Assembly: GCA_019116885.1 (NCBI GenBank)
Contig: DXAU01000038.1
Coordinates: 1 to 64,000, forward strand
Direction: 5' to 3'
DNA: 64,000 nucleotides
Origin: Candidatus Mediterraneibacter pullistercoris
Lineage (GTDB): Bacteria; Bacillota; Clostridia; Lachnospirales; Lachnospiraceae
Both the position numbers and the translations under genes were made by a program. The notes below the pieces were generated by a model that was given only the letters and a program-made list of their open reading frames with translations, was not told the origin of the DNA and did no database searches. Below are positions 16,321-39,660 of this stretch, piece by piece (the stretch's first letter is position 1; each line of letters opens with the position of its first letter).

Positions 16321-17556
16321 ATGTACGATTTCGATGAAATCATGGCAACAGATCCACAGATCGCGGATGCGATCAAAGCAGAGATGGAGAGACAGAATTC
16401 CCATATTGAGCTGATCGCATCAGAGAACTGGGTAAGCAGGGCAGTGATGGCAGCGATGGGAAGCCCCCTCACGAACAAATATGCGGAGGGGTATCCGGGA
16501 AAGAGATATTACGGTGGATGCCAGTGTGTGGACGTTGTAGAGGACCTGGCCAGGGAACGGGCGAAAGAGCTGTTTGGCTGTGAATATGCCAATGTCCAGC
16601 CCCACTCGGGTGCACAGGCTAATATGGCGGTATTCTTCGCCATGATGGAGCCGGGCGACACTTATATGGGCATGAATCTGGATCATGGCGGTCATCTGAC
16701 CCACGGATCACCGGTCAATATGTCAGGGAAATATTACAATGTAGTTCCCTATGGCGTAAACGATGAAGGAGTGATCGACTATGACAATGTCCTTGCCATT
16801 GCAAAAGAGTGCAGGCCGAAACTCATTGTTGCCGGAGCAAGCGCATATGCCCGGACGATCGATTTCAAGCGTTTTCGTGAGATAGCAGATGAAGTCGGAG
16901 CTTACCTTATGGTAGATATGGCGCATATTGCCGGACTTGTGGCAGCAGGACTTCACCCGAGCCCGATCCCTTACGCACATGTGACGACGACGACAACGCA
17001 TAAGACGTTAAGAGGACCGCGCGGGGGCATGATCCTTTCCAGCAATGAGATGAACGAGAAGTTCAATTTCAACAAGGCGATATTCCCCGGTATCCAAGGT
17101 GGTCCGCTCATGCATGTGATCGCCGCGAAAGCTGTCTGCTTCAAAGAAGCTCTCGAGCCTGAGTTCAAGGAGTATCAGAATCAGGTGATAAAGAACGCAA
17201 AGGCGCTCTGCGAGGGACTGAAAAAGCGCGGCATCAGTATCGTATCAGGCGATACGGACAATCATCTGATGCTCGTTGACCTGACAGAGAAGAATGTCAG
17301 CGGCAAAGAGCTGGAGAAGCGCCTGGACGATGCGCATATCACCTGCAACAAAAATACAATCCCCAATGATCCGCGTTCTCCATTCGTGACAAGCGGCGTG
17401 AGACTGGGGACTCCTGCAGTGACGACACGCGGCATGAAAGAAGAGGATATGGATAAGATTGCCGGGATTATTGCGATGGTCATCGAGAGTGAGGAGAATG
17501 TAGAAGAAGGAAGAAAGATGGCGGCAGAACTGACAGAGAAATATCCGCTGTGTTAA
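16321..17556 (+). CDS. glyA: Serine hydroxymethyltransferase
   Basis: GlyA interconverts serine and glycine with tetrahydrofolate as one-carbon acceptor. The 411-residue PLP enzyme shows [48 protein letters not shown] and the Schiff-base lysine in [15 protein letters not shown] (~residue 228). ATG at 16321 follows GGAGG by 8 nt; an in-frame ATG at 16282 lies within the leader. The stop codon touches the left end of the large palindrome that begins at 17555. Confidence 0.97.
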
Positions 17557-18173
17557 ATTCGGATTTGTCAGACTGGAAAAGTGTCCGCCGGGAGGTATGT
17601 ATTGTTAGCGCACACGTTTTCACTCGGTCGCGGCGCAGCGGTACATAAGAGCGCAAAAAACGCGCTCTAAGTACCGACGCCGCTCCAACGGTGCGTACAC
17701 AATACATACCTCCCAGCTGCTTTTTCCATTCCGAAAATCAAATTTCTATCGGGAGGAACAAGACCGGCGCTTTTTCAACTACGATCCCTTTCCTGCCAGT
17801 TTTTGCACCTTACGGGCTTGTCGGAATGACTGCCGGTATGGATAAATCAGAAAATGGATAAAGATGAGACGCAGGAAGACTTAAAAAGAGTTGACTGGTG
17901 TGTGAGGAAGGCGACTTTGGAATAATCTGTTAGAAAAAATTGAGTGTCTGGGAACTGATGTTAAGCCGCAAAATGGATTGTCTGAGCCAAAGGCGAGTTA
18001 TCCATTTTGCGGCTTTGTCTTTCATCAGTTTCCGGACGCTTTAGTTTTTCTCAGATTATGGAGCGGAGCCTGAAGCGCATGCCGGTCAACTCAGAGAAGT
18101 ATTTCGGTGTCTCATCTCCATCCGTTTCCGGATATTATTATTTATTGGTAACCAGTCAGACAAACCCGAATTT
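17555..18173. repeat. 619-bp imperfect palindromic element with 22-bp terminal inverted repeats
   Basis: The ends 17555-17576 and 18152-18173 are inverted copies matching at 20 of 22 positions. Inside, successive blocks pair in strict nesting: 17862-17870 with 18109-18117, 17888-17895 with 18085-18092, 17922-17929 with 18052-18059, 17953-17960 with 18023-18030, and a perfect 15-bp centre 17964-17978 with 18000-18014 around a 21-nt loop. The left arm is ~250 bp longer and contains a second hairpin (17590-17714), as if something was inserted there. No convincing gene lies within. It fills the 690-bp gap between glyA and paaK. It could be a MITE-like element, a transposon remnant or a structured RNA. 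Confidence 0.85.
17590..17714. repeat. 125-bp nested hairpin inside the large palindrome
   Basis: Perfect 16-bp arms 17590-17605 (GGGAGGTATGTATTGT) and 17699-17714. Within are GCGGTAC/GTACC-GC partial pairing and an apical hairpin AGAGCGC (17648-17654) with GCGCTCT (17662-17668). Its style (TATGTAT in the outer arm, GC-rich core with GCTGCGCCGC on one strand) recalls the element at 1632-1872. Confidence 0.85.
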
Positions 18174-18178
18174 TCCGC

Positions 18179-18207
18179 TTTAATTCATCAAAGTATTGTG
18201 GTATACT
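18179..18207 (+). promoter_or_regulatory. Putative promoter of the paaK-ior cluster
   Basis: TATACT at 18202-18207 with a poor -35 (TTTAAT, 18179-18184) at 17-bp spacing. The -35 abuts the right end of the palindromic element. Confidence 0.45.
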
Positions 18208-39404: not shown

Positions 39405-39660
39405 ATATGTCAGAAAAAGAAAGGCTGAGAACGGATAGAGTAGCATGTTCAGAAACTCACAGAGAGAGGATGCCGCCGGCTGAGAGCATCCTTGCGCGGA
39501 GAATGTGTGAAGTGCATCCGGGAGCTGATCCTGTGAAATAGGAGTAGCGGGATACGTGCTGCATACGTTACATGCATCCTGAGTGAAAGGAATGATCCTT
39601 TTAATAGAGTGGAACCGCGGATATGACTTCGTCTCTTGTTTGAGGCGGAGTCATTTTGCT
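39405..39660 (+). promoter_or_regulatory. T-box leader (tRNA-Cys sensing) of cysE-cysS
   Basis: The conserved T-box sequence AGAGTGGAACCGCGG is at 39606-39620. It is followed by the terminator hairpin 39623-39654 (ATGACT...AGTCAT with inner CTC/GAG) and TTTTGCTT. Upstream lies a ~200-nt Stem I/II/III region with hairpins such as GGATGCCGCCGGCTGAGAGCATCC. A candidate Cys specifier codon TGC is at 39513-39515; that assignment is inference. Uncharged tRNA-Cys should stabilise the antiterminator and switch on cysteine and Cys-tRNA synthesis. Confidence 0.9.

Follow-up and report, generated by a model that had tools for sequence, protein, structure and literature searches.

Two large hairpin elements in inverted order form a probable terminator-like composite behind glyA in a Mediterraneibacter genome

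We show that the 619-bp stretch between glyA and a paaK-like gene of Candidatus Mediterraneibacter pullistercoris (contig DXAU01000038.1, positions 1 to 64,000, analysed as a whole and here called the window) is a composite of two hairpin elements, i.e. element A with its core on the + strand followed by element B with its core on the - strand. On balance, we regard it as somewhat probable that the composite is a spreading, two-faced, terminator-like element of gene 3' ends, most likely an oversized intrinsic terminator or 3'-end block. At least one of the two hairpin repeats, A, has moved in a relative.

The preliminary description of the stretch as a nested palindrome between glyA and paaK holds in most points. 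The terminal 22 bp match as inverted copies at 20 positions, the perfect centre spans 16 bp, one base beyond the 15 bp originally noted, and the nested order of the paired blocks is the pairing of the minimum-energy fold of positions 17550-18185. This fold reaches -292.6 kcal/mol on the + strand with none of 20 shuffles being equally low, and -261.9 kcal/mol on the - strand (z -13.3). Among the gaps of at least 70 nt in the window none comes near the palindrome, a comparable energy per base being found only in gaps of 156 and 186 nt. No gene is evident inside, as had been stated; a listing of open reading frames (ORFs) of at least 40 aa holds three short ORFs only (56-75 aa), each with one end within 17480-18183. 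The left end was described as coinciding with the glyA stop codon, and from the position of the stop it follows that both overlap by two bases. The serine hydroxymethyltransferase subfamily model identifies glyA (656.8 bits, cut-off 335), and the name paaK is approximate, since the PaaK model gives 502 bits, below its cut-off of 646.3.

Table 1. Features of the composite behind glyA, in positions of the window
Feature	Position	Strand	Evidence
Whole composite, from glyA stop to promoter side of paaK-like gene	17555..18173	+	fold z -19.1; relatives in genome G019, 81-84%
glyA stop TAA, overlapped by left end of element	17554..17556	+	sequence
Left outer arm	17555..17576	+	20/22 with right arm; left ends of copies at stops, 60/64
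Right outer arm	18152..18173	+	pairs with left arm
A element, hairpin with own right arm	17555..17745	+	complete element of similar size alone in locus L142; A-only copies
A core	17607..17710	+	model R1, 105.1 bits; covariation
Long A stem, arms 17587-17613 and 17691-17717, 85% complementary	17587..17717	+	inverted-repeat match
T run directly 3' of A stem	17721..17725	+	sequence; at least 5 T in 12 nt in 35/35 copies
A-B linker, approximate limits	17746..17815	.	A DNA matches end at about 17794; B matches start at about 17771-17818
B element, approximate limits; arms 17846-17882 / 18097-18133, centre 17963-17978 / 18000-18015	17816..18173	-	
B core	17936..18043	-	model R2, 108.8 bits; covariation

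Searches for known RNA families and ordinary terminators found neither hairpin. Rfam gives no match at 17555-18173, and at a lax threshold the only hits touching the elements in seven loci are sub-gathering ones of eukaryotic type with E above 1; a known RNA family is rejected in the absence of a credible Rfam match. A terminator scan restricted to loops of 3-8 nt reports a sole, unremarkable 5-pair stem at 18120, a count no higher than in shuffles, and with this loop limit it misses the stems of A and B. Elsewhere in the window, a T-box leader lies at 39418-39639 (120.9 bits).

The extra bases noted in the left arm are present, but their content turned out to be a separate hairpin, so that the early picture of one element with a later insertion gives way to two separately conserved hairpins in inverted order. 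A late insertion into one element is rejected because A is found without B and B without A: the A part stands alone on contigs C1 and C36 of the same genome and in locus L142, the B part occurs alone or with other partners, and larger composites of about 620-900 bp are present. Full-length relatives of the whole composite were found in G019. Across species, the glyA site (30 loci) carries an A core in five and a B core in ten loci (two weak or cut), with both in two, and the site behind a TrhP-like gene (69 bits, far under its cut-off; 30 loci) carries an A core in three and a B core near the gene in eight; several of these 60 orthologue loci end soon after the gene, so that absence of a core there is weak evidence. 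In genome G003, glyA is followed by the paaK-like gene across an ordinary gap without a core. Species holding different cores at the same site counts for a composite 3'-end element.

Several further structures were observed at these loci. Other large palindromic modules stand between A and B in L072, L073, L077, L078 and L079 (genomes G002 and G004), and a stem around GATTTCTGGTCCGCTTG in them is a possible third hairpin type. The complement of the A core can form a GCGAAAGC-like mini-hairpin opposite the conserved A motif, and a GCGAAGC-like mini-hairpin is possible on the + strand near 17984-17998, opposite the B apex; words of both kinds are known to form unusually stable DNA hairpins.

The dispersed copies that the preliminary description proposed to look for exist in the genus. 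In the genome itself (2.45 Mb, 74 contigs), DNA matches place the A part at the two further sites on C1 and C36, and the A-core model adds one copy on C31. DNA matches occur in 25 of 61 genomes, i.e. in 25/37 of the genus (this genome included) and 0/24 from other families of the order, and the B part matches in 39/58 genomes of the genus; among named contigs, those carrying the motif belong to three candidate species of Mediterraneibacter and to M. catenae SW178. The genome that appears to be SW178 has 34 matches to the A part. With the A-core model, matches occur in 22/246 genomes of the order, all of the same family and from 12 genera, and in 4/398 genomes of the phylum, again all of the family, copy numbers per genome being lower bounds with 16 (order) and 10 (phylum) candidates scored. 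In other genera, the outer stems around the A core vary from locus to locus. The B core is absent in 62 loci of other genera of the family, which had been fetched for A cores or flanks. Inverted pairs or triplets of A cores within a few hundred bases were seen in L275 and L279 (G098) and L270 (G291).

The apical motif of B, AACTCGCTNCGCTCARACA, is also found in viral-collection contigs (IMG/VR) of differing G+C content, in 5 and 87 stretches. A 7-bp stem flanks the motif at only 22 of the 79 sites read, and a few sites, L383 and L396 among them, show the flanking motifs of the B core as well. The B-core model gave 19 matches in 84 of the 85 viral stretches (L369-L453), which are partly circular since the B apical motif had served to select these stretches. 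Viral contigs hold 0 matches to the exact A-core pattern. The idea of a phage or plasmid passenger is rejected, the whole element having no phage or plasmid match.

The position directly behind a stop codon is the rule across copies. We determined the left ends of most A-part matches that had flank room among those listed in eight genomes, and of six loci from three more genomes, counting the 64 that were locatable with at least 150 nt upstream. Sixty of these lie -8 to +5 nt from a stop codon that closes an ORF of 50 codons or more (48/51 by distinct upstream gene), the four exceptions being L110, L130, L132(-) and L170; with left ends placed at random, about 9% would be expected no more than 8 nt away from a stop (31 gaps of the window that include a 3' end, their median length being 86 nt), these statistics being descriptive as related copies are not independent. 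In 12 of 18 hand-picked copies (L065, L074, L077, L078, L079, L098, L099, L123, L142, L147, L158, L161) the right arm, located by pairing, ends at most 3 nt from the stop of a convergent ORF, with a second ORF heuristic labelling some right neighbours otherwise. All gene calls at the loci are ORF heuristics, and calls of the right neighbour sometimes disagree between them because of spurious ORFs inside the elements. Ordinary terminators of the window likewise start near stop codons.

Among 83 Mediterraneibacter core loci, non-identical over 60 nt and with orthologues counted repeatedly, all 22 two-core loci show a + core followed by a - core (B+B- 8, B+A- 8, A+B- 6). The other 61 loci have a single core, which in 35 of them is sense and in 2 antisense to the sole facing gene end, 13 being convergent and 11 without a facing 3' end. 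Elements of this genus often lie between convergent genes. The stem of A is followed by at least 5 T in 12 nt in 35/35 copies and that of B by at least 5 T in 10 nt in 27/37, at a T background of 0.27, and the sequence upstream of the B stem is A-rich in 37/37. The + strand folds more stably in only 30/41 gaps. In other genera, the A core keeps neither to gene ends nor to the sense orientation (17 (-,-), 9 (+,+), 6 (+,-), 5 (-,+) and 4 with a neighbour missing; 41 of 45 loci oriented), which counts against a terminator reading.

These data suggest a model according to which two large hairpins in inverted order would occupy the space from a stop codon to the next functional sequence. Transcription coming from glyA would copy the A hairpin in sense and then the T run, making A most likely an oversized intrinsic terminator or 3'-end block, and B, as the mirrored hairpin, would act on transcription arriving from the opposite side. 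In the window the right-hand gene is co-directed, so that there is no convergent gene for the B side to serve. The hairpins would spread as dispersed repeats, probably driven by an enzyme, replacing whatever occupied the 3' end, including a resident terminator, with pairing being kept through compensatory change.

Movement of A is seen in a sister genus. Genome G082 carries a 183-bp insert containing a complete A hairpin at a site that is empty in G119. Among the matches listed of 61 genomes, both flanks of this site are present in 49 besides G082, of which 47 are shorter than G082 by 120 nt or more and two (G782 and G744) are longer; the site being short in 47/49 congeners, the simplest reading of the insertion is a gain in G082. 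The two genes on either side of it are co-directed, the second being rapZ-like by eye, and the core of the insert is antisense and without a T run. At this one clean empty site in another genus, no target-site duplication is visible and both arms of the outer stem are missing, which disfavours both the insertion of a core into the loop of an older terminator and a fold-back duplication of local flank. Two further differences between G082 and G119 at A cores are less clear, and one of these points to loss since G119 retains half a hairpin.

This clean derived insertion would also suit purely selfish DNA of the MITE or REP kind that does nothing for the host, is copied in trans by some enzyme and is tolerated right behind genes only, as would the dispersed, non-coding copies with terminal inverted repeats and the antisense or mid-operon A cores of other genera. 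We consider this explanation rather unlikely, as tolerance alone leaves the placement of left ends at stops unexplained, together with the sense bias and the T-rich tails, and neither a target-site duplication nor a parent element was found, the search for a transposase-bearing parent with the same ends covering Y1 transposases only.

Less probable still are old resident bidirectional terminators kept alike within species by gene conversion, with little or no transposition in the genus. Orthologous genes do carry elements in several species with species-typical sequence (among them glyA in this genome and in G019), the starts of ordinary window terminators near stops fit this reading, and the outer arms match better within than between copies (17.2 versus 14.4; 0/20000 permutations), a test biased upward by its 18 hand-picked copies with right ends found by pairing. 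Such residents would not explain why one site holds A, B, both or neither depending on the species, nor copies behind 51 distinct genes or the clean gain of an A hairpin in the sister genus.

Both cores show compensatory change. In the A core, double changes occur in 12/20 pairs (26 sequences from six genera), with 96.2% of cells paired compared to 82.6% in shuffled and at most 45% in slid versions; family-wide, 18/20 pairs show double changes with 94.8% versus 70.0% (46 model matches, the alignment being fitted to the model). In the B core all 30 pairs have double changes, with 90.9% versus 58.8% (37 sequences of the genus). Invariant unpaired letters stand beside the stems of both cores. The preliminary description had set a MITE, marked by dispersed copies, against an RNA, marked by covariation; each of these signatures is seen here, the copies being dispersed in the genus and the structure covarying strongly. 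A-family stems are nearly all Watson-Crick (810/873 cells, 18 G-U). Read on the + strand of the window, which for B is the complement of its core, G-U exceeds A-C in both cores (A: 18 versus 4; B: 56 versus 16), which would be expected from selection on RNA and equally from deamination of an exposed sense strand. The G-U share is about 2% of standard pairs in both, low for an RNA, and with G-U being rare overall, pairing at the DNA level is possible.

Such stems of almost only Watson-Crick pairs would suit hairpins on which a Y1/HUH transposase or some other recombinase acts as single-stranded DNA, their structure being kept for the enzyme and not for an RNA, and the gene-independent orientation in other genera points the same way. 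Y1 transposases were found in 12 of 23 genomes tested, and RAYT-like genes, with 253-261 codons from an MPR start, in 7/16 core-bearing versus 0/7 core-negative genomes; three of them score 71.9-78.4 bits with the NCBIfam REP-transposase model (cut-off 80), and the single RAYT-like protein compared with solved structures had no match among them. We nevertheless judge this explanation improbable, the least likely of the three: RAYT-like genes lie between palindromes of their own (7 loci, by eye), the A core is found in 0/30 Y1 loci, 7/16 core-bearing genomes have no Y1 match, and the excess of G-U over A-C falls on one strand in both cores. RAYT as the mobiliser is unsupported. In four Mediterraneibacter genomes (L349, L356, L358 and L361, from G019, G002, G064 and contig C38 of this genome) a single RAYT-like gene follows a gene that is glycyl-tRNA-synthetase-like by eye, and the palindromes flanking it are of a different family (GGGGACGTAGTAAAA type); in L345, L346 and L347 from two other genera each RAYT-like gene has its own palindrome type.

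The composite shares features with several known systems. It has terminal inverted repeats and is non-coding and dispersed like MITEs, and it has the stable stem, the T-rich tail and the sense position behind a gene of an intrinsic terminator. REP, BIME and REPIN elements are dispersed intergenic palindromes with proposed roles in termination and mRNA stability and with RAYT transposases (PMC3733652, PMC2817692, PMC3116915). The elements reported here resemble REP/BIME in being dispersed intergenic palindromes, in alternating orientation within composites, here always + then -, and in RAYT-like genes being present in some of the genomes. They differ in size, the cores being about 105 nt (models of 104 and 109 positions) and the hairpins 140 to several hundred bp instead of units of 20-40 bp, in lacking a GTAG or CGTC end tag conserved in the core alignments by eye, and in the A core, the one searched for, not standing beside RAYT-like genes. 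Size, tag and RAYT link therefore place the composite outside REP/BIME. BOX elements are not known to be anchored at stop codons in sense with a mirrored second core. BOX, RUP and SPRITE of pneumococci (PMC3049150, PMC10969869) are alike in being modular, small hairpin-forming repeats of a Gram-positive genus, a likeness by description and not by sequence. In an E. coli survey (PMC6060812), short inverted repeats are enriched directly 3' of stop codons; the position behind a stop and the stem followed by T-rich sequence are shared with intrinsic terminators, and in contrast to the repeats of that survey the stems here are far longer, include unpaired motifs that are conserved, recur in the genome and have moved at least once in a relative. 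A catalogue of stem-loop families from 40 bacterial genomes lists repeated, mostly intergenic sequences with a common secondary structure (PMC2267715), which our elements resemble by description only. A literature search, with most subscription journals outside its scope, returned no description of these repeats, and one with core sequence words returned unrelated papers only. By analogy, the composite most likely works like a bidirectional terminator of BIME- or BOX-like repeats.

A bolder form of the terminator-like reading is tentative but possible: two or more families of large hairpin cores, with conserved unpaired motifs that a factor recognises, might be exchangeable 3'-end modules moving between genes, docking in sense at stop codons (where genes converge, one for each end), replacing local terminators and rewiring 3' ends of the genus, and the hairpin family of the B core might extend well outside this bacterial family.

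As a rule, repeats of this kind are tolerated somewhere between genes, whereas the elements described here are fitted to stop codons, in sense and with a mirrored partner. If the elements set mRNA 3' ends, one repeat family would control how these ends form throughout a genus of gut bacteria, and their effect is directly testable because species have exchanged cores at one site. The two covariance models make it possible to trace hairpin families that gave no credible Rfam match here.
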